Assembly: GCA_963930775.1 (NCBI GenBank)
Contig: OZ005703.1
Coordinates: 7,192,001 to 7,256,000, forward strand
Origin: Cliona cf. orientalis
Taxonomy: Eukaryota; Porifera; Demospongiae; Clionaida; Clionaidae
Direction: 5' to 3'
DNA length: 64,000 nt
A model generated the notes under the pieces. That model did no database searches, was not told where the DNA came from, and saw only the letters and a list, made by a program, of their open reading frames with translations. This document shows, one piece after another, positions 441 to 40,925 of the stretch; the stretch's first letter is position 1, and every line of letters begins with the position of its first letter. The translations under genes and the position numbers were made by a program.

Positions 441-3400
441 TTATTTCTTTTTCTTCTTCAGCTTACCACGTGCACCCTGCAGCTCCCTGGCATAATATTT
501 CTTGATTTGTTTACGTTCCTTGTCATCTTTGATCACCTCCAGCCAGTAGTTGAGGCAGCTGTCGATGGTATTATCAAGAGTTTGTTCAACGATGGCCTCG
601 TGGAGAACAAACCGCACAAAGGGAGCCTTGAGGTGCTCATAGTCAAATTCCCCAAGGCATTTGAGGATGCGAGTGATGCGGTGATAGTTGTGCATGGAAC
701 GGTTGAGGTGACGAAATCGTTCCTCCCAATTATTAGCTCTTTCTAATTCACCTAATACAATCACAACAGTATTATTATGGTGTGCACTTATCCCATAAGT
801 AGCTCTATAATCCAGTGGCAGCTCCACTAGCTATATAATATATGACATGCTACAAGCAAGATGACTGCACGTGCATACCTTTACCATAATCAGCATAGCT
901 GCCACAGAACAGCTCAGAAGGGTAGAAGTAAGCAGCTCATAATGGAACAAAGGTGCTAAGTTAATTGATGATTACCATGCAACCGTGAATGAGGAGAACA
1001 CGCATGCTACTGAATGTACTCAGGTAGTCAGCTAGCTATAATATAATATAGGATGTCTCAAAATCAGTGGTCCTGGAACGTACAATACATAATAATAGTA
1101 TTATGAAATTTCCAAAATTTTCTGGGGGAGTACCCCCAGACCCCCCTTACTTTGGAGAATAAGGTGTTATCAATAATTTTTCAGGAGCTGCCCATGTAAT
1201 TAATGCTAAAATGGTGGTTGCATATCATGTACAGAGATTTAAATAAATAATAATATTATTATTATAATATTATAGAAGGCATTTTATAGAGTCTACCATC
1301 TCTATGATATACTATTATTACTTGTACATGTAGCTAAAATTAATGTACATGTATCATAATAATTATTATAGTGTAAACCTACCAGTCTCAGGGTCTTTAA
1401 GTTTCATCCCAAAAAAGTCTAACATCAACTCATATGAGGTAAGGATGCGTTTGTGAGCTACTGGATCGTCACAAATTCGCTGTATTTATAATAGCAGGAA
1501 ATGCTTTTAATTTTTATAATGCTTGGAAGCTAATAGTGATTAATTTTTACCATAATCTCATGGGATTGTAATTCTTGAGCATGCCAATTGGATCCACGTT
1601 CACGGATGGGAAACAGCCACTGAATGTAGCCACGGTGCAGTTCAAGGTGTGAGTAGTTCCCTTTCCAGAGATCGTGAATATTTTCAATTAAGTCACCTGA
1701 ACAGCAGAAAGTAATAATGATTACCAGCATGTAACTATACACTAAAATAATCATCCACAGGGGGTTAGGGAGCACTTGAGGACATAACTCTTACACGGGT
1801 GAGGGGCCAATATAATAATAATTACCATATTTGAAAAACGCACGCTTTTCTGGTAAAGGTCGTCAATCGCTCCATATATACACGTTACCATAGGACAGGT
1901 TTTAATTGCATTGTAGTCAAGTCAGGCCAAATTGCAAATCCAATAATTGCGATAGACGACCCCGTACCGTACTGTAGTATATTATGTACATGTTTATGTT
2001 TGCGAATCTATTAATTGCAAAACGTACAAAAACTCGCAATTCGCAATTAATAAATACTCATAATTAAAACCCAACCTACGGTATGAGAATTCGTAAAATG
2101 CTAATTTCTTACGTTAAATTGGATCATACATGTATTCGATAAACTACGGTATAGCCAAAACTTCCTACTAAAACATATAATATAATATGCATACAATCTG
2201 AACATACCATCCGGTTCTGATAGTATTTGGTTGGTGTAGAATTTATAATTTCTGTCAAGACTTGGGTTATCCCATTCATGAGTATCCTGGAGATTTACGG
2301 CTCATTCATAACTATAAACCATAAACATAGATGCTAACTTACCCGGTAGCCACTTCGATACCTCTGAGTGTCCTTAGATGCCCATGATCCATAACCACTA
2401 CCATAAAATGTTATGTCGTCATCATCATCATCATCATCGTCCTTTTCTTGAGGTGAACTTTTATGTTTGGTCCTTGCCTCTTCTTGGCTATCACCCGCAG
2501 TTGCTGTACGAGGTGGAGCGACACACTCCAATTTACTTTTACAATATTTCTGCTTAATCTATTCGGCTAAGTACCCTTCATTAACAGGGTCACTCTCCAG
2601 AGCTTCAACTATGGCATCCCAGGACGGAGGGGGGTCAGTCTGCTTGAACCAGTTCTCCAGCATTCTGGTCAGACAATTACCATCTTGAAGATGAAAAGAT
2701 CGTTCAATACTGTCAAGAGTACCAGTGTTGATTTCTAGTTCAATTCCAATATCTCTCCACTTAGCTCGAGCAGGATAAAGAGCTGATCGAGCATTTTTTA
2801 AGGTTACCCGATGACCTAATTACAGGTACAAAAAGGGTCGAAGGGTGATGGCAGTATACAAATAAGGATTACATTGTAGGGATTGATTACAATTACTTGA
2901 AAAAATGATATCCATATAATATATATAATATTATATTAATCCTGGTTTGTATACTTTTTAGTACAATCATCCTTACTTCCCCTTCAATTTTGCTTGTACA
3001 AACATATACAATTAGTTGGAAATGTGTTACACGCTATTCATAATAGACTTTATCTATAGTACCTATATACCCTTAGCAATACCCTTACTCATTGCATGAA
3101 TACTTTTAGAAGCTCCCTTCTGATCATGGTCATAAGCTGTCGATGTGCTAGATGGATGTACCGCATCAGTAATTGTTACTTTATCCAGTGCATTACAATT
3201 TTCGTCAGCAGCCTTATCTACCACTTTAACTGGATGATGGTCAGCAATAGTCTTTGCCAGTGCATGGTTGTTTCCTCCAGCGGGATTATCCACTGCCTCT
3301 ACCAGTCTTCGCCAGGTTGGAGGTCCATACTTTTCAACATTGTATCGCTGTCGGAGCCATGCCAAGAGTACTTCTATAAATGCTTGATTGATGTTAGTAT

Positions 3401-5027
3401 TGTAGGTCATCCGTACGCCCTCCACCTCTCTTTGAGGCAGGCCAAGATATGTTCCTAACTGATAGTAGCAAAAATGGACATTTACAGCTTGTATGTGTAC
3501 CTCCCTGAAATCATCTTCAGCTATAATCAAATAAAAATTAAGAAAAACAACAACATATTTTGTGCATAACTATTGCAATAACTCGTACCAAGGGCTTATA
3601 TTCTATATTAATGTCGGGAGCTGATAGGGATAAGGCTGTCAATTCTGGTTTAATTATTAAGTCCTTGTTATTAAGAATAAGGGCATACTCTCTTCTGAAT
3701 CACAAGTGCACGCACTTAGTAGGCGTGGCGTTCTATGAACCCTGACCTTAATGGCATCAACTACTGGAAGCTAAAGTGTGAAGTCGGTCAGTGATGGCAT
3801 AAGCATTCATGACAACAGATACTGGATGGATAAACTCTATACACACCGAGAAGATCGAGACTTCAGATATGGGTAGGATAGTATGGTAGTATGCGCATAC
3901 ACATACACTTAATACTGAGGGTTCACAGCATCAACCTCGTTGGCTTAGCTATACTACTTGGGACATCAGAAGGACTGCTCTAGCTTCTATATGCCCCAAA
4001 TTCCTTCAAAAAATTGTTTGGCGTGAACAATAATTATCATATTATAGGGGATGAGAACAACAACCTTAAAGTTTACGGTATTTCAATGTGAAAACAAATT
4101 CACCAAACCTTTCTGCAATATTAATTTATACACTGACTCACTCAGAACAGTACTATCATCCACGTTGTCATAGTCAAGATCTATACATAGAGAGGAACAA
4201 GTTATCGACCTTAGGAAAAAATTTCAAATACAGTCTGGAGCTTTACCAGGATAGAGCCCAGGTCCAGGGTTTGTTTCAATGTCCCCACATCTCAGAAGTA
4301 GAGAGGATTGGACAATTAGTCTCTTAGCTTGTAAAAGGAGAATCAACATCAATAAAATTCCTTTACTACTGGGTTGGTATTCTGTGGTAACAGAATTGTA
4401 TATTGTTCATACCACAACAAATGCAGAGGATATAATTAGAGCACATCCTCTTCTCCTGATAATGATGGCTTTTGCAGGCAATTTCCACCCTTCTGGTCCA
4501 CCACCCCATACCCTTTTTTGGAAAATTTTGATGAGTTACTTGCTAGCTTAATTAAAAATTTGATGCATCAGCTGCATGCATAGTTGAACCCCAATCTCTA
4601 AATATGATGTGGATAATAATAATATTGTAATTTTTAATATAGTGCTTGTGACTCTGCCTCACAGCCCATGATGCAGCATACCTTTCCATCTGATCAAGAT
4701 GTGACAAATCGTGATAAGTACTGTGATCAATTTGGGGATCAGAGGGGCGAGCAGACACAATAGAGCCTTCCATCCCATCCAGGTGGACAAAGGCAGTTCG
4801 GTTAACGCTGAATAGCAAAAATCTCCCCCTCTCCTATTTACTTGTGATTGTGGAGCAGGTTGGCCATTCCAGGCTACAATCTCTCTCCCTCCTGGAGTGA
4901 CAGAACCTGGTGTTGAGTCGTGATGATTAGCCGGCTTCGATACCGATCGGGAAACGCTCACGGTACGGATGCGACTGGCGTTGATAAGACCAGTCCTAAC
5001 TCGCCACTCCTGAGCACTAATCGGCAT
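441..5027 (-). CDS. 2A-Death-Death-OGFr fusion gene with an in-frame stop
   Basis: Seven exons join with consistent phases: 4682-5027, 4247-4381, 3071-3520, 2343-2815, 2208-2286, 1551-1696, 1383-1479 and then 441-751 as the last. The start is the ATG at 5027 (MPISAQEWRVRTG), conserved in two paralogues. Exon 1 encodes a basic, Pro/Ser-rich N-terminus and one hydrophobic segment. Exon 2 ends in a 2A motif (LLLRCGDIETNPGP). Exon 3 is a Death-like domain. Exon 4 is a second Death domain close to those of the two NLRs, followed by a run of nine Asp. The last four exons encode an OGFr conserved region (GYIQWLFPIRERGSNWHAQ; YELMLDFFGMKL; HRITRILKCLGE). Exon 4 has TAG at 2559-2561 where the NLR paralogues have CAG. 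Unless this is read through, spliced around or a sequence error, the OGFr part is not made. No second TM exon like that of the NLR genes was found. Function is inferred: an innate-immune/death adaptor fused to OGFr. Confidence 0.72.
1108..1150. repeat. Short dispersed-repeat fragment with G/C palindrome
   Basis: CTGGGGGAGTACCCCCAG is a perfect short palindrome in an AT-rich intron and is followed by ACCCCCC. It looks like a transposon-derived fragment, but there is no second copy in the window to confirm this. Confidence 0.3.
1836..2155. repeat. Dispersed repeat, second copy at 25513-25618
   Basis: The flanks (CGGTAAAagTCGTCAATCGC, ATGAGAATTCG, TTGGATCATAC, ATTCGATaAACTACGGTA) match the copy at 25513-25618 in the same order. 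This copy carries a 194-bp insertion that the other lacks. It lies in an intron of the OGFr gene. Confidence 0.65.
1888..2081. mobile_element. 194-bp MITE with TA target-site duplication
   Basis: The ends are imperfect inverted repeats (CCATAGGACAGGTTTTAATT and AATTAAAACCCAACCTACGG), flanked on both sides by TA. The matching repeat at 25513-25618 has a single TA at 25565-25566, which is the empty site. TA duplication with short inverted ends is typical of Tc1/mariner-derived MITEs. No transposase is encoded. Confidence 0.75.
4247..4381 (-). other. 2A peptide exon of the OGFr-type gene
   Basis: The 45-codon exon has phase-1 introns on both sides: acceptor CCACAG at 4382-4387 and donor GTAAAG. 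The translation runs from hydrophobic ILLMLILLLQ to SSLLLRCGDIETNPGP, then GLYP. It matches the 2A consensus D(V/I)ExNPG-P. Ribosome skipping would separate the Gly and the last Pro, freeing the downstream Death/OGFr protein. The sequence around the motif differs from the NLR 2A exons, so this is an older or independently acquired version. Confidence 0.8.
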
Positions 5028-7809: not shown

Positions 7810-10800
7810 TTAAATTTTATATGGATCATAATTGAAATGTTGTTTTATTTGTATTTGCTCCTTGACTTCATCATAACCTTGGCATTGTCCCAGAGTCTGA
7901 ATCAGTATATCATTGAAAAAGTCAGCTGTGTGTATCACCACTTGCAAGAGGTGCTGACTGTTGTTTATCCCTCTAACGATAGCAAGGCAAACAGAATTGA
8001 TGATTTGGTTCTTATCAGCATATTTAACATCACCACATGACTGAGTAAAATACTTAGGAGCTACTGTTAGCTCAAGACACTGGAGAGAAGAATTTGTTCG
8101 TAACATGCCTTCTAGATTTGTAGCACTGTAGTCATTATCTCTCACATCAAGCGTCCGCAAAGTACCATTTTCATTACAAGCAAACACATCAAACAGACCA
8201 TCAACATCAATACTCGCTCCATACAGCCTCAACACCCGGAGTGTCTGATTCGCTCTCAGCATATCTGCCAAGGGTGCACTGGCACAATGATTATCTCCTA
8301 AGTCAAGAGCCAGTAAAGTTTTGTTTTTCGATACTGCCTCAGCGATTATTGTTGTATCATCTTCACTAAGGCCACAGTTCCGAAGATTAAGTGTTTCCAG
8401 GGATGTCTCTTTAAGTAAGAAAGTTATCAATTCACCACTGTTACATGGAAGTTTGTTAAGAGCATCCAGGGTTCCAGTGACTTGGTGTAACAACATGCCA
8501 TGCACATAAAAGGGGTAATTGCAGACAATTAGCTCCTTCAACGATTTACACGAGATGAAGTTGGCTGTAAGCATTTTCACTGAAGTCGCATCACTTTCAA
8601 TTTCGAATGTGGAAGAAAAGTATAATGACAGGGCAATAATATTTGGATTCAAGATCAGTAGGGATGAACATCGCTTTAGAAAGCTCTCACTCAAACTTCC
8701 CCCTAGTTTCAATGATTGCAATTTGTCAGCAGATTTACTTGCAAAAACTGCATCCAATATAAAATTATTAGTATCTTGCGAATGGGAATGTTTAAAATCT
8801 AATATTACTTCTTCAAGGTGAATGAATTCTCTGATAATTGTACCTATTGGTGATATGTAACAGTTAGGTAGTACATTGTCGGATGATGACACTACGACAA
8901 ATTTCTTGATGTTGAATGTTACTATATCTTGAAGATCAAAAAAAGCAGTCAGAGCAGCAGCTGTTGTTTCTGAATCATACCTATTACCGCAACATACATA
9001 CAATTCACAAATCTCATTATTAGCACTGGGATGAATACACTGCTTTATGCCAGCATGTAGCATTTCCATACACTCCATTGTGATAATACCATCTTCCTCA
9101 TTAAAGCAAAGTTGCCATTTACAATTGCTGTTTCCTATGCACCATCCTGCAACAAAACAATCCATTGGACTCATGTTTTTGCTGATCATAAGAAACGTAG
9201 TCTTTGTTCCAATACACTCCTGAAGCAACACTATATTCTGGCTTTCATAAAACCATTCATACCGACTGCCTAATGTACGATCCGTATATTCATTGCAACT
9301 TAAATTTATATGACTTCCAACAACATGGGGCATGACAGTTGCTTTGTGATGCGTTATAACTGTGGATACGCCACTCGCCGATGAAATATCATTACAGGAA
9401 CGAACCGTCTTCAGAATAATACTCTCATATATCTGTTCCAGTTCCTCATATCTATGCAGCAAAATCATTTCAATGCCGGATGGCTGACTCTTTGATAATT
9501 CCTTCAGAAGAGATGGATTATTCAGCTTTGTTATTCCAGCTAAGAACCTCATTACTGATTCTTTTTGGTTACCAACAGTATAATAATATAATTCAGAATC
9601 ACCATCCTGGGCCAGTTGCAATGACAAATGATATGCAGCTAAAAACTCCTGTATGGTTAGATGAAGAAAGTTATATGATACTGAGACTCCAACACTGAAG
9701 TGAAGCTCAGGAACAGACTGCATAAAGCCAAGGGTTTCAAAATCATCTGGGAGGTCTGAAAAGATTAATTGGTCCCCATTGTTTATGCCATCATTAGCTA
9801 GCTTACATATATTCAGGAATTTTTTATATATCTCTCTGGGCAGATCTGCAAAACTTGACACCTTCCTTATTCTTGTTCCCTGATCAACAAGATAACGGAT
9901 GAGTAATGTATGTGAAAAAGCAGTATAAAGCTCTGTCATTGTATTTGGAATGACACAATCAGTGCGGCCTCGTCTATCTTTGTAGACATCAAAGACAATA
10001 GCAGCGTTTAGTGGTATGTACATTGCAGCATGGATGGGAGGGTTGAGGGACACATAATGCCGCAACTCGTCAAGAAGATTTGAATCATCTAATGTAATGC
10101 TAATCAAATATTTATCAATTTGCTGCTTTGTAAAACCTAGAATCTCAAACTGTTGTGAAATCCTCTCTCTAGCCTTCCAGTGAAGTTCAGAAATTGCCCA
10201 TGGACGAGAAGTAACGAGAACCGTAGCTAATGGCAGAAGGCGACCATAAATTAAATCAAGATAAAGAGATGAGTCAACTCTCATGCTCCATGGAAGCTCA
10301 TCAAAGCCTTCCAATAAAAACAGAACACCTTTCCCGTTATTCTGCTCAATTTCAATAGCTAGTGACTCTGAAATAGACTTCTTTCGATGGATAAGTATAT
10401 CAGTTAAGTCTTTTGCTCGCCTCACAGTCTCGTCACGTAAACGTAGCAAGATTACTAGCTCAAAGTGCCGAAGGAGCTCTCCATTGCCCCATTTTCTACA
10501 AAGCTCCCAAGCAAATGTTGATTTTCCAACACCTGGTGCTCCAGTGACAATTACAAGTTTGGGATATGAAACTTCCATTTGTGATGGATCATATGCAAAG
10601 GGAATTTCCTGCATGCAAGCTACTTTCTCTATAGTTATTGGTGCTTTCTTTCGACAAATGTCGTCAATATTTCCTTTGATTGTGTACTTGGTAAATTCAT
10701 CAGCCTCATGCCTTGATACCCTTTGCTTGTCAATAAATGCAAGGTTGATGTAATGCTTTGAAGGTGTAGGTGGCCACTTGTTGTCTGATGGAAGGTTGCT

Positions 10801-12345
10801 GCTAGTGTATAGGGCTTTCAGATACCTTACATACTGAGTCTCAGTAGTGCATGCTGCAACTGAGGACGATTCACTAACCACTGTGACAGTATGAGGTGGA
10901 GGGACACACTCGGATTTACTTTCAGAAGATGTACAATATTTCTGCTTAATCTGTTCGGCTAAGTGCCCTTCACCTACAGGGCCACTCTCAAGAGCTTCAA
11001 CTATGGCATCCCAGGACGGAGGGGGGTCAGTCTGCTTTAACCAGTTTTCTAGCATTCTACTAAGACACTCCGTGTGATCAAAATGAAATGATTTCTCGAT
11101 ACTATCGAGAGTACCAATATCTATTTCCAGTTCTATCCCAATATTTCGCCATTTGGCTCGAACAGGATGAAGCACTGATCGAGTAGTCTTCAAGGTTACT
11201 CGATGACCTAATTAAAAATATACCAAAGCTCCTTATTTATCTAATTTAATCGTCTACACATGCAAATAAATTATCACTGGCGTCAAGGCAATAATTTTAA
11301 TGTCAAAATATTAAAAATTTAAACATCATTGCAGTGCACAATAGACACCAACTACAATATCTTAACTTACTGATAGTATGCCAAAACTTATTATCACTTA
11401 TTACATATAATATATCCGCATGCGCAAAAAAAGGCTGCTGGTGCCAATAATCATAATTTAAATTGACAAGTAATTGCAAAATCATGCATAATAATAATAT
11501 TATTAGCACCAATAATAACCATAAATATACTTCTATAACTTACCAGGCCCTGGGTTAGTCTCAACATCTCCAGAGAGCAGAAGCAACATGGACACAACAT
11601 CAGCTTTGAAACATAAAACGTAGGTAGTAGTCCTGCACAGCAAACCCTCAGAACATGGCAAAACAACAGTATGCATCCGGTAGCTGGCGTTAGCTAAGAG
11701 ATTATGCACACATACAGGCACATTTCCACAATGTCAAATAAATTATAATCATATAATGAAGTTTAGTACCTTTTGATTTGAGCAATAGCCATAATACGGT
11801 AAATGAAACAATCAGAACTGCTGCCACTACAAGTAGTACAATCCATGAATGTCTCTGGTTAAAAGAAGGAATGACCCTGGCCACAATGGTACCCTCAGCT
11901 TCAGTAGAATGACCAGCTGAATAATAAATACGATATTATAGTAGCTACTCACAGCAAGCAGCATACCTTTGCATCCAATCAATACGTGACAAATTGTGAT
12001 AAGTACTGTGATCAACTTGGGAGTCAGAGGGGCTATCAGGCACAAAAATAGAGCCTTCCATCCCATCCAGGTGGACGAAGGAATCTCGGTTAACGCTGAA
12101 GAGCAAGAATTTCCCTCTCTCCTACTCACTTGTGACGGTGGAGCAGGTTGGCCATTCCAGGCTACAATCTCTCTCCCTCCTGGAGGGCTAGGGACAAAAA
12201 TCACTGGAGCTGAGTCATGATTAGCCCGCGGCGACCGTGGCACTGAAGCAGTCGGCTTCGATGATCGGAAAACGCTCACGGTACGGACGCGACTGGCGTT
12301 GAAAAGACCAGTCCTAACTCGCCACTCCTGAGCACTAATCGGCAT
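7810..12345 (-). CDS. 2A-linked membrane protein + Death-NACHT-LRR receptor (NLR-A)
   Basis: Four exons, all joined in phase 1: 11967-12345, 11770-11916, 11544-11693 and 7810-11207. They give 1357 residues from the ATG at 12345. Residues 1 to about 175 are a basic N-terminus with two hydrophobic segments (near WKALFLCLIAPL and WIVLLVVAAVLIVSF). A 2A motif, SGDVETNPGP, ends at residue 225. It is followed directly by a Death domain (about 226-315), NACHT with Walker A GAPGVGKST at 448-456, Walker B LLEGFDELP and sensor LVTSRPW, then ribonuclease-inhibitor-type LRRs. In animals this architecture senses microbial or danger signals in the cytosol and signals through Death domains. If the 2A acts, the mRNA gives a 224-residue membrane protein and a free 1133-residue NLR. 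Walker B has Glu where the paralogue has Asp. The 5' end faces INIP. Confidence 0.88.
11544..11693 (-). other. 2A peptide exon of NLR-A
   Basis: The 50-codon exon is bounded by phase-1 introns. It ends VVSMLLLLSGDVETNPGP plus the first base of a Gly codon, with donor GTAAGT directly after. The next exon supplies GHRVTLK and the Death domain. The motif fits the 2A consensus at every fixed position. 2A-like signals are established in picornaviruses, in some non-LTR retrotransposons and at the N-termini of sea-urchin NLRs. Confidence 0.88.
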
Positions 12346-12494
12346 CTTTCTCTCGAGCGCCACACCCCCTTTCTTCGGATTGGGGGGCGTGACGCGCGAC
12401 ACGGCAACCTAGCCTCGACCTTTAACCTCTGCATTAACCCGTCTGGCGCCAAAAGCTTTACTTGATGAATTAATTTTAGAGAAATGATGCTGTG
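12346..12494. promoter_or_regulatory. Bidirectional promoter between NLR-A and INIP-A
   Basis: 149 bp separate the two divergent start codons. It contains TGGCGCCAAAA at 12444-12454, a match to E2F-type sites (TTTTGGCGCC on the minus strand). The core site is kept at the same place in copy B. Promoter function is inferred from the head-to-head layout. Confidence 0.5.
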
Positions 12495-13264
12495 ATGAGT
12501 GACCCAGCTCAGAGTCGCCGTAGCATCCTCCAAGGCCTCCAGCAGACCCGATCCAGGCTACAGAGACTGCACAGCGACGACCCGCAACCTCAACAAAGGT
12601 TATTATAACTGTAAAAATGATACCTACATGTAGAGTAGACATGCTAGTAATTTCCGAGTCCAGAAGGAACCCCTGATTAGCCACATCCCTATGTAGGCCC
12701 ATTCCCATCATAACTTTCAAGTATGCAACATTGAAAAGTTGGGAACGAGCCGGGCCTGGTGATAAGGCTAACCCCTCATCATTCACTCATATGTAGTCCG
12801 GGAGATCAATGCTGGTGTAAGTACCTTCTCCCGAGAACTGCTGTTCAATGTGAAACAATACTATTATAGCATTGAAAAATCTTGTATTTTTAGGTCGTCA
12901 TCCAGTGTGAGTGGTGGGGGACCTCGTCCTGGTGGAGCCACACCCCATGCCCCTCCCATCAGCCGGCCCCCTCCCAGCAGCACAGTCCACCAACCTCCAC
13001 CTCATGTGCACGCTCAGTCACAGATGCTGGCCCCTCCCACCAGAACCAGCTACACAGTGAGTCAACTGTACAGTGTGTGCATGCATGTACGTATAAATTT
13101 GTATGTGACGTGTCTACTGATGGTCTTTCTCTTCTTTATGTGATACTTTTTCAATAGTCTCCCTCCCCAACTATGGATAGCTCCTATCTCTCTCAGCAAC
13201 AGAAGATGGCAATGCAGGTAATCTAGTACCAGTAGTGATCTAGAGAATTGATTCAGTGTGTTAT

Positions 13265-13334
<70 letters not shown>

Positions 13335-13434
13335 AGTCAATTCACAGTCGTTTGGTTATTACATCTCTCAGCCCTCCCACCATGGCAACATCGTACTGCC
13401 AAGATTTGACTCAAATGGACAACTAATAATGTAG
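12495..13434 (+). CDS. INIP: SOSS complex subunit C homologue, copy A
   Basis: Four exons (12495-12598, 12894-13056, 13158-13217, 13333-13434) encode 142 residues. INIP/SOSS-C is a small partner of the single-stranded-DNA-binding SOSS complex in DNA double-strand-break repair. The N-terminus (SRRSILQGLQQTRSRLQRL) matches the short helix of human INIP. The C-terminus (QQQKMAMQQVNSQSFGYYIS) matches the human block AAQQKAALQHAHAHSSGYFI. The middle is Pro-rich and family-variable. Copy A reads GNIVLPRFD where copy B and human keep LPVLPR, so three codons have been lost by an in-frame 9-base deletion. A long CT microsatellite just before exon 4 doubles as polypyrimidine tract. Confidence 0.82.
13267..13331. 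repeat. (CT)n microsatellite at the INIP-A exon-4 acceptor
   Basis: About 32 CT units run into the CAG acceptor of INIP exon 4. The matching repeat in copy B is almost twice as long. Confidence 0.9.
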
Positions 13435-13650
13435 TCACTCCATATAAAAATATCATAGCTACAATCATAAAATTAAATACTCGCAAATTTATTTTAAGTT
13501 TGTAGGTATCTGTGGATCATACTGTATGAATATTGGAGGGCAGAAGACGTTGGCATGCATCTGGTAAACTTGCTTAAAGATAGTAACACTGTGATGATGC
13601 AAACCAATAATTATTGTACCTCTCTTACTATTACCAGTCATAATATTATT

Positions 13651-14108
13651 GATGACAATCTAAACAAGTCCTATCCCCTGCCACACATGTATGTAGTCAA
13701 GGACCTAGTGCCCCACCTGCTGGTGGCACCTGGGGAAATACCTCGGACCAGCTGTACTCATGCAGGCATATCGATGGATGATTGACAGTAGGGTAGGTCA
13801 ACAGTTTCTGTAGCTATGACATTGTATACCCAAACCCCAGCTGTTAAAATGTTTTGCTATTTTCTCTTTTATACTGGTAGGATGAGTTCCAAAAGGAACG
13901 GCTGCAGAAGGTCTCTGACCCATTCTCAGTGTTTCGTTGTCACACTATCATAAACTGCACAAAGACATGCCCCAAGGTACGTACAAAACAAGTTATAATA
14001 ATGATAATTCAGATGGCTGATCATGAACCAGTTCTTTTCTATGAATGCAGGGTCTCAATCCTGGAAAGGCAACTTGCAGAAATTAAGAAGATGTTATATA
14101 TATATCTA
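13651..14108 (+). pseudogene. SDHB: SDHB fragment, frame-broken
   Basis: It starts inside SDHB with [20 protein letters not shown], a segment missing from the copy at 6219-7634. It then jumps at a shared TGCCCC stretch (near 13709) into the exon-3 sequence for tyrosine-tryptophan-tryptophan and onwards, out of frame, ending at TGA. The following exons (13881-13976 and from about 14050) keep recognisable sequence ([20 protein letters not shown]). The last exon has an extra base (GGCAACTTGC versus GGCTATTGC) that shifts the frame. It cannot encode SDHB. It lies in the same place relative to an NLR as the other SDHB copy, so it is part of the tandem duplication. Confidence 0.85.
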
Positions 14109-14184
14109 GTTCATAATTCATTATCATAACATTAATAGAGTATCATAAGAATAATAATTATTATTATCATAAAAGAAAAGGTCA

Positions 14185-17100
14185 CTAGCCAAAAAATCTG
14201 CTATCTATAGTCTGGATTTTTGCAGACCATGCACTTTCGTCATATTTGAATACTTTTATCCTTTCCTTAACTTGATCATAACCTTGACACTGCTGCATGG
14301 TGCATATTAATGTATCATACAAGTTGTCTGTTGCGTGTATCATCAGGTCATGGATAGTTGTGTTGTTTGATAATGCTGTTATAAGTGTAGAACATACAGA
14401 AGAGATACTGATGGTTTCACGCTTTTTGTTTGCAGCTAATAATATGGTATTCATTCTAGGAGTAAACCTAGACCTGCTCCAGCATATAGCTAGATCTGGG
14501 ACATGATGTTTTGAAGAATCAGTAACTGTTATTTGAAGATGCTGAAGTGATATATTATTCATCAACAAATGTTGCAGATTTTCGATACTATAATTATTAT
14601 CTCTCACATCAAGAGTCTCTAGAGTTGTGTTTTCATTGTCAGCAAGCACTTTAAACAAACCATCAGCGTCAACAAATGATCCACAGAGCCTCAATACTTG
14701 GAGAGTTTGATTTACTCTCAGCATATCTGCAAACGGGTCAACTTCAGCATCCTGTGAACGACTACAATTATTATTACTTAAATCGAGAGTTAGTAAAACT
14801 TTGTTATGCTTTACTGCTTGAGTAATTATGGCTGTATCACGTCGATCCAAACTACAGTTCTGAAGAGTAAGCACCTTCAGGTTGGATGTACCTTGAAGTA
14901 AATGAGCTACCATCTCACCGCTATTGCGTGGAAAACTTGTCGCATAAGATGCCAAATTTTCAGCATCACTTCTTGAACAAGTACATTGTCCACCATCTTT
15001 ATCTAGTTGTTCTAATAACATACCATGCATGTAAAAGGGATATCTATGAATTGCCAGAAACTGTAATGACTTAAAATTCATCATTGCAGTTGTACAAGAT
15101 ATCATGTCAGTGGTCTTAATATCAATGTAAGAAGAAAAGTATAAGGATAAAGAAGGAATAGTTAAATCTGTCAACAGATTTCTCTTAATGAAGTGCTCAC
15201 TTAAATTATCTCCTAACGTCAAGCTTCCAATAGTGCCACATGATAGTACTACATCCAATATTGCATTGGCTTCCATACTGCCACATGCAATGTCTAATAT
15301 AACTTCATCAAGGAATGTAAGTTTCTTTATTTGAGTGCAAAATGATGCTACATACTGGCTGGAAATGTAATATTCCAGGCAAACAAATCGTTTAATATTG
15401 AAGGTGATTGCATTCTGAAGATCAAAGAACATCTGAACGGAATCATCAGAGCCAGAAACTCTCCCGATATCTAGTTCACAAACTTCACAATACGAAGGAT
15501 GGCATTTTTGCACCCCAGCATGAAGCATTGCTATACAATCTGGTGAAACATTGCATGATAAGCATAGTTTCCATTTACAAACAGTGCTTCCTATGCACCA
15601 TCCAGCTGCAAAACAATCCATGGGAGTCATCTTACTAGTAATCATAAGAAATGCAGTCTCAGTTCCAATTGATGCCTCCAATTGTGTTTTATTTTGACCC
15701 TCATAAAACATTGCTGCAGCACTGCCACTTAGGCAAACATGATACTCAACAACTGTAGTACTGCCAATTATACTTGGTACATTTTCTGAATCATGGGTTC
15801 TAATGTATAATATACGAAGTGTATGATCTTGATCTCTCATATTTTCGCAATCCCCCAAAAGTGGTTCGATTTTTACAACATGATTATATTTTGGTAGCTG
15901 CTCAGGTAAGATAGCTGGATCATTTAGCTTTGTTATTCCAGCTAAGAATCTAGTAACTGATTTATTTTGTATTTGTATTTGCACACTTTTAGCCCGCTGC
16001 ACAGAATCTGATAGATAATATGCAGCTAAAAACTCCTGTATCGTTAAATGTAGGAAATTATATGATATTGAAACCCCACTACTACAGTGTAAATCAGGAA
16101 CAGACTGCATGAATCCAAGAGTTTCAAAGCCATCTGGTAGGTCTGAAAAGACTAACTGTCTATCATTCAACCCCCTGAAGGCTAGTTCACATATGCCGAG
16201 GAATTTCTTGTATACAACTTTTGGCAGATTTTCGAAACTAGCTACTTTCAAGTTCTTAGTTTTCTCTCCCTGATCATGAAGGTAGCGAATAAGTAAAGTA
16301 CGCGAAAAAGCAGTGTAAAGTTCTGTCATTGTATTTGGAATAACACAATCAGCGTGGCCTCGTCTATCTTTGTAAACCGCAAAGACAATAGCAGCATTTA
16401 GTGGTATATACATAGCAGCATGGATGGGAGGGTTGAGGGACACATAGCGACGCAACTCACCCAGGAGGTTTGAATCACCAATAGTAATGCTAATCAAGTA
16501 TTCATCAATTTGCTGCTTTGTAAAGCCCAGGATCTCAAGCTGTTGTGAAATTCTCTCGTTAGTCGTCCACTGAACATCAGAAATTGCCCATGGACGAGAA
16601 GTAACAAGAACTGTAGCTAATGGCAGAAGGCAGCCATAAATTAAATCGAGATACAGGGACGATTCACTCCTCATGCTTTCTGGAAGTTCGTCAAAGCCAT
16701 CTAATACAAATAGAATACCTTCCCCATTTCTTTGCCTAATTTCAGTAGCTACGGTTGTGGAAACAGATTCATCACCATGGAAAAGTATATCAGTTAACAC
16801 TTTCGCTTTCCTCACATTTTTATCACGTAAACGTAGCAAGATTACTAAAGAAAAGTGCTGTAGGAGCTCTCCATTGGCCCATTTTCTACAAAGCTCCCAA
16901 GAAAATGTTGATTTTCCAACACCTGGTGCTCCAGTCACAATTACGAGCTTCGGATATGAAATTTCTACTTGTGATGGATCTTCCTGCATACAAGCTACCT
17001 TCTCTATAGTTATTGGTTCTTTCTTGTGACAAATGTCATCAATATTTCCTTTGATTGTATACCTCGTAAACTCATCAGCCTCATGCCTTGTTACCCTTTG

Positions 17101-18799
17101 CTTATCAATAAGTGCAAGTTTGATATAGTGCTTTGAAGGCGTAGGTGGCCACTTGTTGTCTGATGGAAGTTTGCTGCTAGTGTATAGGGCTTTCAGGTAC
17201 CTAACATACTCAGTAGTGGATGCTGCAACTGAGGATGATTCACTGACCATTGTCATAGTGACAGTTTGAGGTGGAGGGACACACTCAGATCTATTTTCAG
17301 AAGGTGTACAATATTTCCACTTAATCTGTTCGGCTAAGCGCCCCTCTCCTACAGGGCCACTTTCGAGAGCTTCAACTATGGCATCCCAGGACGGAGAGGG
17401 ATCAGTCTGCTTAAACCAGAAATCGAGCATTCTGGTCAGACAATTATTATCTTGAAAATGACAAGATCGCTCAATACTATCAAGAGTGCCAATGTCAATA
17501 TCTAGTTCAATCCCAATATCTTTCCACTTAGCTCGAACAGGATAAAGTGCTGATCGAGCATTCTTCAAGGTTACCCGATGACCTAATTAAAAATACACCA
17601 AAGCTCCTTATTAATTTTAACCCACATATATTATTATAATAATAATCTTCTACGTAAACGTAGCTACATATGCAACTAAATTATCACTGGCATCAATGAG
17701 GTAATAACTTTAATATCAGAAAAAAACTTCTAGTAAAAAAATCATTCCAGCACACAATAGACACCAATTACAACATCTTAACCTACCTATAATAATTATT
17801 ATTATATCCGCATGTGCAAAAAAAATTGCTGCTGGCACCAACGATAATCATAATTAATTTTATTAAAATGAAAAGCAAAATCATGCATAATAATATTATT
17901 AGCACCAATTATATACAATATTATACTTCTTTTACTTACCAGGCCCTGGGTTAGTTTCAACATCTCCAGAAAGCAGAAGCAACATGGACACAACGTCAGC
18001 TTTGAAACATAAAATGTAGGTGGTAGTCCTACACAGCGAACCCTCAGAACATGGCAAAACAACAGTATGCATCCGGTAGCTGGAGTTAGCTAAGAGATTA
18101 TATACATACACTGAGGTACGTTTTTGCAACATCAAATAAAATTTAATTATAATCACATCATGAAGTTTAGTACCTTTTTTGTGTTTAGATTTGAGCAGTA
18201 GCCATAATACGGCAAATAAAATAACCAGAATTGCTGCCACTACAAGTAGTACAATCCAAGAATGATTGTGGTCAAAAGAAGGAACAATCCTGGCCACAAT
18301 GGTACCCTCAGCTTCAGTAGAACAATCAGTCGGATAGCGGATCTCTATTAAAATAATATGATAATATTATTGGAAATGATTACTATAGTCTCTACCTCAC
18401 AGCAAGCAGCATACCTTTGTATCCAATCAAGATGTGATAAATCATGGTAAGTATCGTGATCAACTTGGGGATCAGAGGAGCGAGTAAGCATAAAAGTAGA
18501 GCCTTCCATCCCATCCAGGTGGAGGAAGGCAGCTCGGTTAACGCTGAAGAGTAAGAATCTCCTTCCCTCATACTCACTTGTGACTGTGGAGCAGGTTGGC
18601 CATTCCAGGCTACAATCTCTCTCCTTCCTGGAGGGCTAGGGGCAAAAACCACTGGAGCTGAGTTATGACTATGATTAGCCCGCGGCGACCGTGGCACCGA
18701 ATTAGTCGGCTTCGATGATCGGAAAACGCTCACGGTACGGATGCGACTAGCATTGATAAGACCAGTCCTAACTCGCCACTCCTGAGCACTAATCGGCAT
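14185..18799 (-). CDS. 2A-linked membrane protein + Death-NACHT-LRR receptor (NLR-B)
   Basis: Exons 18415-18799, 18174-18344, 17940-18089 and 14185-17582 join in phase 1 and give 1367 residues. The layout is that of NLR-A: basic N-terminus (MPISAQEWRVRTG), hydrophobic segments near WKALLLCLLAPLIPKLI and WIVLLVVAAILVILF, 2A motif SGDVETNPGP, Death domain, NACHT with Walker A GAPGVGKST and a standard Walker B (FVLDGFDELP), then LRRs. The Death and NACHT parts are close to NLR-A. The LRR half has diverged more, as expected if ligand sensing diversifies. A foldback element sits in its promoter. Skipping at the 2A would release the NLR from the membrane-anchored leader. Failed skipping would give a tethered fusion. 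Confidence 0.88.
17940..18089 (-). other. 2A peptide exon of NLR-B
   Basis: Same length (150 bp), phases and splice signals as the exon in NLR-A. It ends VVSMLLLLSGDVETNPGP. The last 24 residues are identical in the two copies, while TM exon 2 next to it differs in length (171 versus 147 bp). Confidence 0.88.
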
Positions 18800-23600: not shown

Positions 23601-23699
23601 CACTTCCATGTCGCATCCTTAGGTGGGCCTATATAGCGTCCATGTAGCTGCTAGCTTGTTCAGAATCGACACTAACTTGAAACGAGACATACTGATCCG
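20103..23699. other. 3.6-kb region without a recognisable gene
   Basis: Only short, unconvincing ORFs occur. It holds a poly-C/CT microsatellite (about 20597-20680), a stretch with repeated GCTTGCTT and TTAATAACGTTTT motifs (20755-21150), and the foldback at 22213-22248. CTATATAG near 23629 could be the TATA element of the arrestin gene. Confidence 0.5.
22213..22248. repeat. Short foldback of the TCGTACCCAG family
   Basis: AGCTTCGTACCCAGAG is followed by GCATGCC and then ATGGGCACGAAGCT. The ends resemble the foldbacks at 5444-5468 and 18878-18953. Confidence 0.5.
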
Positions 23700-24998
23700 A
23701 TGCCGACTCGCAATCCGGAAGATTTCAAGATTGTGCTGGATCCGTCGCCCGGCGAAGGCGAAGACAGTGGGCAGCAGGTGTACCACCCAGGCTCTCAAAT
23801 AACGGGGACTCTGTTCGTCAAGGTGACAGGCTCTTCGCCGCAAGAAATCGACAATATTGTGATCAATCTGCAGGGCGAGGGGCAAGTGCGCTGGACGAAA
23901 ACACACGTGCACATAACCGGGAACAATGGCATCTCGAACTTCTACACCACAGAATCCGTGCGCAAAGCTAACAAAGTGTATATTGATCTGACGAAAACCT
24001 TGTGGAGTAAGAGTGAGACACCAGATGGTAGCCTACCATTAGGAGAACACAGTTTCCCATTTCACTTCGTTCTTCCACCAAGAGTTCCATCAACTCATGA
24101 AAGTGATATACCGTATATCCCAGGTCAGCTTTACGTAGGTGACAAAGGTAACGGGTGGACAAGGTACACCCTAAAGGCTCACATGAATAGGAGACACCCA
24201 CGAACGGACCATGTTCATACTGAAAAGCAATTGACCATCAAAGAGTATGTGGACATATCATCCATTCCCCAGCTTCAGCTACCTGTCAATAAACAGGTCC
24301 GTAAAGCAGCTGGTTGTTGCTTTAGTTGCATTTCGGGCACTGTGGTTGCAACAATGACGCTGCCCAAGACTGGCTTTTATGTCAATGAAGACATTCCGTA
24401 TCGCGTAACAATCGAAAATGGAGGTAGTCAACCTGTCGAGGCAACAGCAACTTTGGAGGAGCGCATCGTCTATCATACCCGATTTCGAAAATGTTACCCT
24501 AAGAAAGTCGTGCATGCCACTGCAAACAATGGTCCCGTGCAGCCAGGAGAAACTACCACGCTCACCCCCGAAGTGCAAGTGTTCAAGATTCCATCATCTG
24601 TGATAGTAATAGTGAACTCAGTTATCATCAAGCAATCCTTTTTCCTAAAGGTGAAAGTGCGTGTCCCCAATGTCATCTTTAATCCGATTATAATCTGCCC
24701 ACTGGTCATCAGCAATGGCAAACCAGATGAAATCACACATCCTGAGGAAGTGATATCAATCAGTGAAGTCATTCCATCGCCCCCTCAAAATGAAATCAGC
24801 CCATCCTCTGCACCCCCTCCAAGCTATAGTCAACCAGTGCCACCCTCCTCCTCTAATAATTCTGCCGGACATTCTGATATTCCTATGAAAAAGGTTGGTG
24901 GTTCCCCTGCTAAATCCGGCGCTTTTGCTTCAGAGTCAGAGTCTGCTCTTACAGCTACTGCACCCCCTTCCTATCAGGAAACCATCAAGAATTATTGA
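23700..24998 (+). CDS. Alpha-arrestin (arrestin domain-containing protein)
   Basis: Intronless ORF of 432 residues. It has an arrestin N domain (about 8-180; GSQITGTLFVKV, FPFHFVLPP, YTLKAHMNR) and C domain (about 200-345; LPKTGFYVNEDIPYRVTIEN). The tail is Ser/Pro-rich with two PPSY motifs, which recruit WW domains of NEDD4-type ubiquitin ligases. Alpha-arrestins act as adaptors that direct ubiquitination and endocytosis of membrane proteins. The start is the first ATG of the frame and lies about 70 bp after a TATA-like sequence. The closest animal relatives are ARRDC-type proteins. No specific orthologue can be named. Confidence 0.9.
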   Translation: MPTRNPEDFKIVLDPSPGEGEDSGQQVYHPGSQITGTLFVKVTGSSPQEIDNIVINLQGEGQVRWTKTHVHITGNNGISNFYTTESVRKANKVYIDLTKTLWSKSETPDGSLPLGEHSFPFHFVLPPRVPSTHESDIPYIPGQLYVGDKGNGWTRYTLKAHMNRRHPRTDHVHTEKQLTIKEYVDISSIPQLQLPVNKQVRKAAGCCFSCISGTVVATMTLPKTGFYVNEDIPYRVTIENGGSQPVEATATLEERIVYHTRFRKCYPKKVVHATANNGPVQPGETTTLTPEVQVFKIPSSVIVIVNSVIIKQSFFLKVKVRVPNVIFNPIIICPLVISNGKPDEITHPEEVISISEVIPSPPQNEISPSSAPPPSYSQPVPPSSSNNSAGHSDIPMKKVGGSPAKSGAFASESESALTATAPPSYQETIKNY

Positions 24999-39323: not shown

Positions 39324-39499
39324 GATGTAAGCGACGTCGCTTCTTTCTCACACTTAGCTTTACTTTGCCCGAAACTGTGTACGCGTATACCAATACAGTC
39401 TAGTATACAGTTACATGTGGCACTTTGATGACGTAAATATGACCTAATCAGTCATGCTGGTTTTAGTACGCATGCGTCAGGCCGCGTGGTGCGGTACCG
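39324..39499. promoter_or_regulatory. Bidirectional promoter between FAF1 and the MutS gene
   Basis: The two divergent ATGs are 176 bp apart (39323 and 39500). Function is inferred from layout only. Confidence 0.45.
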
Positions 39500-40925
39500 A
39501 TGTTGGCTATGCTTAGCCGTCGATTCATACGCTACCTATGGCCAAGAGCGTCGAAGAAAGTTCCTCGGGACCTAAGGAAGGTGCTAGGATGCCTACAAAC
39601 TGGCGTGTTCGTCCCAAAAAGTGCGATACGCGCGATCCAGGGAGCAAACTATAGCGATCTTCCTACGCCGAGTTCGACTTTGTACCGACGCACTCGACTG
39701 ATGACGCAGTACGAGAAGATCAAAGAGCAGTACAAAGACTACATTCTATTGTTCCAAGTTGGCGACTTCTACGAGATCTATGGAGAAGATGCCAGTAAGT
39801 TTAATAATTATGCATGCGCATGTACCGCATGCGGTGTACGCAAGGAGTATTGTTATGATAGCAACAATGCATTAATACCCGCAGTGACCTGCACCTGCAC
39901 ACTAATTAACACTGAGCTAATTAGCATTAGTGCCTTAGCTTTATGCAAAATGCCAATGTCATGTTGCTATAATTTAATACAGCTGCAGTGGTTATGTTTT
40001 AATATTCCATGCAGGTGAGGTGGCCTCCAAGACCTCACTTCGTCTCACTCGTAAAAAGAATGTGTTTATGGCTGGATTTCCCATCAAAGCACTCAGTGAG
40101 TGGCAGAGGACACTAGTCGAGGCTGGCTTTCAGCTTGCAGTCTGCACACAAACCACACCTCCGTAAGTATAGTAGCAGTCAGGTGTGGAAATTTCAATGA
40201 GTGCAGAACGGGATCATTTCTACGAAAAAATTTCAGCATGAAAAATTTTGTCATACGGAAGTTTCATAATGCGAAAGTTTCTAGACCTACAGTATAAACT
40301 AAGTTGTGTTAATTTAACATTATTTTAGGGAGGGAAAGAAGACTGTTTTGCTTGGTAGGGATGTTATAAAGTTAATTACGCCGGGGACTCTGATTGAGCC
40401 CCTGGATAACGAAGCTAATTATCTTCTGTGTCTGTCGACGGGACCAGGTAGCACCGTTGGACTGGCCTGGATTGATATATCCACAGGAGAATTCCAGGTA
40501 TACTACAGAAACAAAGTCGGTGTGCATTAATTTAAATTTTTTTTTTATAATTGGCTACATTAAGGTATCATCGTCTGAAACTGATTGCATTGATGAAGAT
40601 TTGGAGCGAATTTGCCCTTCAGAGGTATACTTTAATGTAAATTTCTGTTTCATGACTTCATTTGAGCCTACTGATTAACATTGTAGGTATTGCTACGTGA
40701 TGAACTCGCTGACTCAGTGAAACACGGAAGGACATACCAGTCCACCCACCCTATGGCTCGCAGTGCTGAACGCTTGGCCAAATCATCCCTACTCAAGGAG
40801 TGTCATATCACTGGAGTACCAGCCTCTTGGTTTAGCGAAGAGATAAAGAAGGAGACGGTTGGAAAGAGCAAGAAAAGAACGAGCTCAAAGCAGCTGGTGG
40901 ATGACAAACAACATGCTGAATACAA
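39500..40925 (+). CDS. MutS homologue (mitochondrial MSH1-like), 5' part only
   Basis: Exons 39500-39794, 40015-40162, 40329-40497, 40565-40624 and 40687-40925 join in frame. The first 30 residues are rich in Arg/Lys and lack acids ([16 protein letters not shown]), as in a mitochondrial presequence. MutS domain I follows: [20 protein letters not shown], then [11 protein letters not shown], with the mismatch-reading Phe-x-Glu replaced by Phe-Tyr-Glu as in MutS/MSH1. Then come ITPGTLIE and [12 protein letters not shown] of the connector. The lever, clamp and ATPase/Walker domains that make up most of a roughly 900-residue MutS are missing. After the last donor (GTGAGT) the next 350 bp show no MutS sequence, and minus-strand DSL genes begin. 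It is a truncated gene or a duplicated fragment. Whether it is expressed is unknown. Confidence 0.8.

Follow-up and report, generated by a model that had tools for sequence, protein, structure and literature searches.

We analysed a stretch of 64,000 nt from the genome of the sponge Cliona cf. orientalis (GCA_963930775.1, OZ005703.1 positions 7192001-7256000), hereafter the window; coordinates below are window positions. Two genes on its minus strand, A and B, share an organisation in which exons for a predicted membrane protein are followed by an exon that ends in a 2A motif and by a long exon encoding a Death-NACHT protein with a putative leucine-rich repeat (LRR) part (Death-NACHT-LRR below), i.e., an immune receptor of the NLR type. 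2A-like skip sequences have been described in viruses, and sea-urchin immune genes have them as short leaders; here, if the motif is active, one mRNA would give two proteins. The exons are the following:

18415..18799, minus strand: gene A exon 1, with the ATG at 18799, the N-terminal MPISAQEWRVRTG signature and the first transmembrane (TM) segment at residues about 100-125
18174..18344, minus strand: gene A exon 2, second TM segment, then KSKHKK
17940..18089, minus strand: gene A exon 3 (2A exon), LLLLSGDVETNPGP at its end followed by one base, phase 1 at both edges, octapeptide encoded at 17964-17941
14185..17582, minus strand: gene A exon 4, Death-NACHT-LRR, 1133 residues past the skip site
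11967..12345, minus strand: gene B exon 1
11770..11916, minus strand: gene B exon 2, second TM segment
11544..11693, minus strand: gene B exon 3 (2A exon), octapeptide encoded at 11568-11545
7810..11207, minus strand: gene B exon 4, Death-NACHT-LRR, 1133 residues past the skip site

Joining and translating the exons gave four in-frame exons per gene, with GT-AG at every intron, and frames of 1367 (A) and 1357 (B) residues whose single stop lies at the end. This bears out the junctions 17940/17582 and 11544/11207 put forward in a first-pass annotation of the window. The 2A exon has 150 nt in both genes, is flanked by phase 1 on both sides, and stops one base (G) past the last Pro codon of NPGP; the next exon brings GT, which completes one codon (...NPGP-G-HRVTL...), so that no residue is lost at this splice, as the annotation had stated. 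It was also right that the fixed DVExNPGP positions are present in both genes and that the motif sits on its own phase-1 exon after two TM segments, spliced to Death-NACHT-LRR. The upstream context is of the favoured kind. The predicted split products have 234 and 1133 residues in A and 224 and 1133 in B; for the membrane protein the annotation had given roughly 225 residues. One open frame joins the TM segments to the NACHT domain, with the 2A between them: two strong hydrophobic segments precede the motif, and the motif itself is overlapped by a weaker third (mean hydropathy 1.7). The downstream product has no Met before its residue 53, which already lies within the Death domain, and an intact Death domain therefore requires a start in the upstream exons.

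The NACHT domain is recognised by Pfam in both genes (E 7e-23 in A, 1e-18 in B). The best solved relatives of gene A are two chains labelled "uncharacterized protein" (5irl and 5irm, which we take to be NOD2), followed by NLRP3 and NLRP1. Residues about 881-1021 of gene A weakly match ribonuclease-inhibitor-like and LRR chains (E 4.5e-4 to 7.5e-3), and the Pfam scan found no LRR in gene A or gene B. The Pfam signal for Death is weak, with B under the cut-off and A without a match. Pfam matched two of the nine Death-like locus frames scanned, one of them above the cut-off, and we used profile and fold instead. A profile of 12 sequences matched FADD (E 6.6e-7), and the predicted structure of the gene A region (predicted local distance difference test 88, predicted template modelling score 0.80) matched the Death domains of FADD and ankyrin in Foldseek at probability 1.00, with a best E of 0.04 and none reaching 0.001. 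Profile and predicted fold agree that the N-terminal domain after the 2A is a FADD-type Death fold.

The motif recurs across the genome. In the whole 217-Mb assembly, to which all genome-wide searches refer and for which motif counts are lower bounds, D[VI]ExNPGP is found in at least 152 places (105 DVE and 47 DIE) and in none for either reversed-pattern control; a chance origin of the motifs was set aside on these numbers. The looser D[VIM]xxNPGP gave at least 157 places (4 in the control), and permitting one mismatch gave at least 185 (9 in the control); since the mismatch adds little, decayed copies look few. When the pattern required the preceding Gly codon but let the first position be D, N, H, Y, G, S, R or C, at least 161 places were found against 0 in the control, among them five reading GNIELNPGP. 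These five lie beside one GDIELNPGP in a cluster on the minus strand (G000:C2:1335799-1404947) and represent a natural Asp-to-Asn variant of the motif. In PMC12846837, Asn at the first position of the octapeptide is one of the variants whose activity is about 90% or higher.

The upstream context of the motif recurs as well. From 54 distinct contexts we removed ten flagged repeat copies, leaving 44, a few element-like ones still among them. All 44 have Gly directly ahead of the octapeptide, a position outside the pattern, and 40 have Leu at position 13 counted from the C-terminus. The first GT[AG] past the motif lies in phase 1 in 39 of the 44 (a mechanical donor count; binomial p about 4e-14), and the 24-nt core, free codon included, takes 40 distinct DNA forms. 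In the window the preceding hexapeptide is LLLLSG, i.e., L-rich with Gly before Asp, which is a permissive 2A context. LLLLSG is also the label of an L-rich class of StopGo upstream contexts; L-rich contexts ending in (A/S/C)G form a class of which motif 6 is active in reticulocyte lysate, and StopGo is caused by the nascent chain within the exit tunnel (PMC12846837).

What precedes the motif also recurs. The exon-1 protein of gene A has three matches in the genome, all inside the window and each 765-856 bp before a 2A. Its N-terminal signature, [ED]WR[AV]R[IT]G, occurs 47 times (2 in the control). In linkage tests, which used 147 of the 152 2A places (100 of 105 DVE and 47 of 47 DIE), 44 of the 47 signatures are followed on their own strand by a listed 2A no more than 6 kb away (median 940 bp); within 6 kb, none has a 2A on the opposite strand and one has a 2A upstream. 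As to the remaining three, one is 7.7 kb from a 2A, one reads NVEENPGP (L061), and one has no motif in the 2.5 kb fetched, with different-looking sequence in that stretch (L062). We judge membrane module and 2A to be one unit. Further hydrophobic stretches were seen by eye in the upstream frames of several signature loci. A chimeric multi-TM query (L021 exons with hand-set junctions plus the L045 NACHT exon) gave no match in a protein search.

The topology of the module was approached through its charges (K/R to D/E, with TM borders set by hand). In gene A these are 12 to 5 at the N-terminus, 3 to 5 in the loop and 4 to 0 in the first 15 tail residues; for gene B, with 3 to 2 in the loop and 2 to 0 in the tail, the picture is less clear. 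The gene A charges favour a placement of both ends of the membrane protein in the cytosol, and a sensor left unskipped would accordingly be tethered facing the cytosol.

The region downstream of the motif was searched with a Death profile built from gene models of a second sponge, Halichondria panicea, and then iterated on fetched genome loci (L numbers). The 58 2A places examined are a non-random set (the first 30 listed loci, all on C1; the last ten DIE; twelve hand-picked for clusters; three in the window), a few of them counted twice via overlapping loci, and at 29 of them the profile matched a Death domain downstream on the same strand, no more than 4.5 kb away. The same profile gave no match upstream and none on the opposite strand at these places, the fetched loci holding 1-2 kb upstream, less than downstream. 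The 29 places without a match include 15 in a repeated family on C1 (L023 and L024 twice each, L026-L028, L030-L035, L037, L038), five loci that look element-like by eye (L029, L036, L041, L046, L058), L039, the NACHT genes L047 and L048, and six loci with only 1.5 kb downstream (L013, L016, L019, L020, L022, L025). At one place with Death exons, L060, two motifs (DVERNPGP and DVEMNPGP, positions 1500 and 1870) lie 370 bp apart before a single Death-exon run and may be alternative or tandem. At another, L042, a 404-residue open frame with a signal-like stretch (by eye) ends in GDIEKNPGP, with a Death match 2.1 kb downstream, representing another type of upstream protein.

For NACHT we used a set of 104 rows, from a search in which 103 of 490 candidates were scored, together with gene B, which had escaped that search and was added by hand at an approximate position. 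A listed 2A lies upstream of twelve of these genes, on their own strand and no more than 7 kb away, and none has an opposite-strand listed 2A within 25 kb; six NACHT-2A pairs have the 2A downstream on the same strand within 25 kb, in tandem clusters. A P-loop regular expression adds four genes (L021, L045, L047, L048), of which L045 was confirmed as NACHT by Pfam; this expression matched downstream at 6 of 53 2A places and missed three NACHT genes found by hidden Markov model. Among eight NACHT loci fetched for their high score, the Death profile matched L006 and L007 only, and both have a 2A upstream. Other C-terminal parts include ankyrin-like repeats at L049-L052 (by eye). The 2A-Death genes are not only NLRs: they comprise ankyrin genes (by eye), a probable OGFr gene in the window (copy C, below) and, in H. 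panicea, genes with GTPase domains. The annotation had presented the arrangement as a feature of two NLR genes; it holds in both, and the set is wider, with a third copy in the window and non-NLR genes included.

The same order of domains is found in H. panicea, whose database gene models (P numbers) were retrieved with residues 1-340 of P0032 and are annotated as "uncharacterized". LOC135347305, LOC135347244 and others resemble genes A and B in having two TM peaks, DVEANPGP, a Death-like region and NACHT in that order (P0032, P0126). They differ from gene A in sequence, with 38% identity over 62% of the first 600 residues, the N-terminal module having diverged. NACHT is found in four models (P0032, P0126, P0127, P0128); among the remaining ten are models with Death, GTPase-type or ankyrin domains and models without a Pfam domain. 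P0130 carries ELWRARIGLFN about 130 residues ahead of its 2A. NPGP occurs in one (P0032) of the 120 listed among 442 homologues of gene A, a count without bearing on the 2A because the starts of the rest were not compared.

Taken together, we consider it probable that genes A and B each encode, in one frame, two proteins split at the 2A: a membrane protein and a free Death-NACHT-LRR sensor. Translation would begin at the exon-1 ATG and produce a small two-TM protein that, judging from hydropathy and charge, keeps both its N-terminus and its positively charged tail on the cytosolic side. Once the ribosome reached the end of exon 3, it would be halted by the nascent chain LLLLSGDVETNPG, leaving the Gly-Pro bond unmade; the membrane protein would be let go, and the ribosome would resume at the Pro codon, the second product being a cytosolic Death-NACHT-LRR sensor. 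Chains in which the bond did form would keep the sensor tethered, still on the cytosolic side. The most likely role of such a gene would be to co-produce a cytosolic immune sensor and a membrane partner or anchor in a near-fixed ratio, with a possible tethered minority. The annotation had likewise predicted equal amounts of the two products and a tethered form from incomplete skipping.

Several observations weigh against this reading. The R11A change lowered 2A activity in the sea urchin (PMC4981915), and position 11 is Leu in genes A and B. De Felipe 2010 (PMC2978324) found 2A inhibited by some upstream sequences on their translocation into the endoplasmic reticulum (ER), and for this reason a coupling of membrane insertion to skipping efficiency is proposed here as an idea only. 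The 15 residues before the first TM segment are neutral, not clearly positive. The presence of the motif in 14 of the 14 H. panicea models retrieved (11 gene loci, several isoforms) speaks for the reading, as an occurrence and not an unbiased frequency, since the query itself bears a 2A; just nine of the 14 have two TM peaks before the peak adjacent to the 2A, while P0133 has one, P0129 and P0132 have none, and P0130 and P0131 have their 2A past the 400 residues scanned. Motifs are also present in mobile-element-like sequences of the Cliona genome. Finally, exon 2 shows no sign of constraint between A and B (ratio of non-synonymous to synonymous divergence, dN/dS, 1.35), and synonymous divergence is 0.11-0.18 in exons 1-3 against 0.5-1.4 in exon 4, the 1.4 being that of its last part. 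In favour of the reading, five synonymous and three non-synonymous changes separate the two 2A exons (dN/dS 0.18, Fisher p 0.02). Exon 1 has a dN/dS of 0.48, and the two introns that were compared agree at 80-83% of aligned bases. The low synonymous divergence of the 5' exons suggests that those of A and B were recently exchanged or homogenised, with the similarity of exon 3 partly due to recency or gene conversion, and the exon-3 dN/dS test is therefore weak alone.

The alternative that survives best, though we regard it as unlikely, follows the sea urchin: the main transcripts would have their 5' end shortly upstream of exon 3, translation would begin at the Met of that exon (M221 in A, M211 in B), the 2A would be a short N-terminal leader or signal-like peptide, and the TM exons would belong to a minor or separate transcript. 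An in-frame Met does stand immediately ahead of LLLLSGDVETNPGP, sea-urchin NLRs provide the precedent, and copy C, L043 and L044 have short leaders of the form MLILL(L/V)QA...SLLL(R/K)CGDIE(T/S)NPGP. Yet this would leave unexplained why the exon-1 signature is paired with a 2A in 44 of 47 places, why exon 1 is stop-free in all three window copies, and why two TM peaks stand upstream in the nine H. panicea models. Counted from the exon-1 start, the 2A ends at residue 234 (A) or 224 (B), away from the extreme N-terminus where a signal sequence would lie; it would be there only if the exon-3 Met were the start.

That no skipping takes place, and that each gene makes a single long membrane-bound NLR, seems very improbable to us. 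Such receptors have been proposed in print for sponges and anemones from TM predictions (PMC12909245, PMC5094078), and the inhibition of 2A by certain ER-translocated upstream sequences (PMC2978324) would act in this direction. A plain linker, however, would need neither the octapeptide nor its context, which recur across many gene types through synonymous codon change (40 cores in 44 contexts) and with few decayed copies. It is harder still to credit that the 2A exon is a functionless relic of a mobile element: motifs do occur in the C1 DIE(V/L)NPGP family (L023-L038) and in Cys-rich or helicase-like frames (L029, L036, L041, L046), but the 2A is repeatedly placed ahead of Death exons, with GT[AG] in phase 1 in 39 of 44 contexts, a recurrent partner signature and a counterpart in a second species. 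Finally, we give next to no credence to two products arising by RNA processing, where a kept intron 3 would end the membrane protein in NPGPGK (A) or NPGPGKL (B) at the in-frame stop found directly past the donor in both genes, as stops near donors are common by chance and the recurrence of octapeptide and context would be left unexplained.

Beyond the two-protein reading of genes A and B, we tentatively propose, as a possibility that may well fail, that StopGo is a regular design of sponge genes. A membrane family, with WRxRxG in many members, would be made together with cytosolic Death sensors (NLR, ankyrin, OGFr, GTPase), the efficiency of skipping, possibly set by docking at the ER, would determine tethering, and the "membrane-bound NLRs" of early animals would often be two proteins.

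Other features of the window include copy C, on the same strand as A and B:

4682..5027, minus strand: copy C exon 1, same membrane module as A and B
4247..4382, minus strand: copy C 2A exon, MLILLLQAKRLIVQSSLLLRCGDIETNPGP, octapeptide from 4283 down, acceptors at 4382, 4361 and 4328 all frame-keeping
3066..3520, minus strand: copy C first Death exon, beginning at an AG, frame open to 3066
2562..2815, minus strand: copy C second Death exon, homologous to the A and B Death exons, frame stopping at a TAG where A has CAG
444..830, minus strand: OGFr_N (PF04664) frame, downstream of copy C

The OGFr_N frame is probably the C-terminal part of the copy C gene, and positions 444-5027 (minus strand) possibly form one 2A-Death-Death-OGFr gene, with a leader-like 2A exon differing from that of A and B. 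Elsewhere in the window are repeated receptor-like exons at about 30000-63000 (minus strand; Ig, EGF and protein-tyrosine-phosphatase domains, six exons scanned by Pfam), a MutS domain I exon at 39467-40015 (plus strand) and an arrestin-domain gene in a single open frame at 23676-24995 (plus strand).

Mobile-element-like motifs are of two sorts. The C1 repeated family (L023-L038), in which the motif reads DIE(V/L)NPGP, has a hydrophobic stretch, LLLMLSGDIEVNPGP and a sequence resembling a helix-turn-helix (by eye), and with its many copies looks mobile. The other sort, at L029, L036, L041 and L046, has the 2A in frames that look element-like and contain Cys-rich sequence resembling zinc fingers; long helicase-like frames are present as well at L041 and L046 (by eye).

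The presence of 2A in sea-urchin NLRs and that of "membrane-bound" NLRs in sponges and anemones are already published. What differs here is a full predicted membrane protein before the 2A, in several types of Death-domain genes. In the open-access literature searched, whose coverage is incomplete and leaves outside it the Rao 2025 survey of eukaryotic and viral 2A, we found no tie of 2A to sponge NLRs; the main text of PMC12909245 has no match for "2a-like", "npgp" or "ribosom", and PMC5094078 was not searched for 2A. If the 2A is active, the membrane-bound NLRs published for sponges, and perhaps those for anemones, should be re-examined for a 2A between TM and NACHT. The genes would also be a natural case of membrane insertion and 2A acting on one chain.

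The closest known system is that of the 2A NLRs of Strongylocentrotus purpuratus (Roulston 2016, PMC4981915), which like genes A and B have D[VI]ExNPGP ahead of a Death-NACHT-LRR sensor. By our own translation of a primer printed in that paper, the last ten residues of SpNLR2A6 (SGDVETNPGP), which is about 80% active in vitro (PMC4981915), are those of A and B, and the sea-urchin L13 and L14 are kept. The annotation was also right that the sponge arrangement is unlike the N-terminal sea-urchin form, and its reading is strengthened by the genome-wide linkage and the second-sponge gene models. The motif of A and B comes only after about 210 residues that include two TM segments, and the predicted orientation of a sensor left unskipped is towards the cytosol instead of the secretory lumen. 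Viral StopGo sequences with L-rich context (PMC12846837) share with A and B the LLLLSG class, the Gly before Asp and the canonical octapeptide, whereas A and B are spliced genes of host type with immune-receptor domains. Non-LTR retrotransposons with 2A (mentioned in PMC4981915) have the same motif, and element-like 2A is also present in the Cliona genome; in A and B, by contrast, the 2A closes a spliced exon ahead of Death-NACHT-LRR. The TM-bearing NLRs of sea anemones and sponges (PMC5094078, PMC12909245) resemble A and B in having TM segments alongside NLR domains, as an N-terminal cluster in anemones, and differ from them in that A and B place a 2A between the two.

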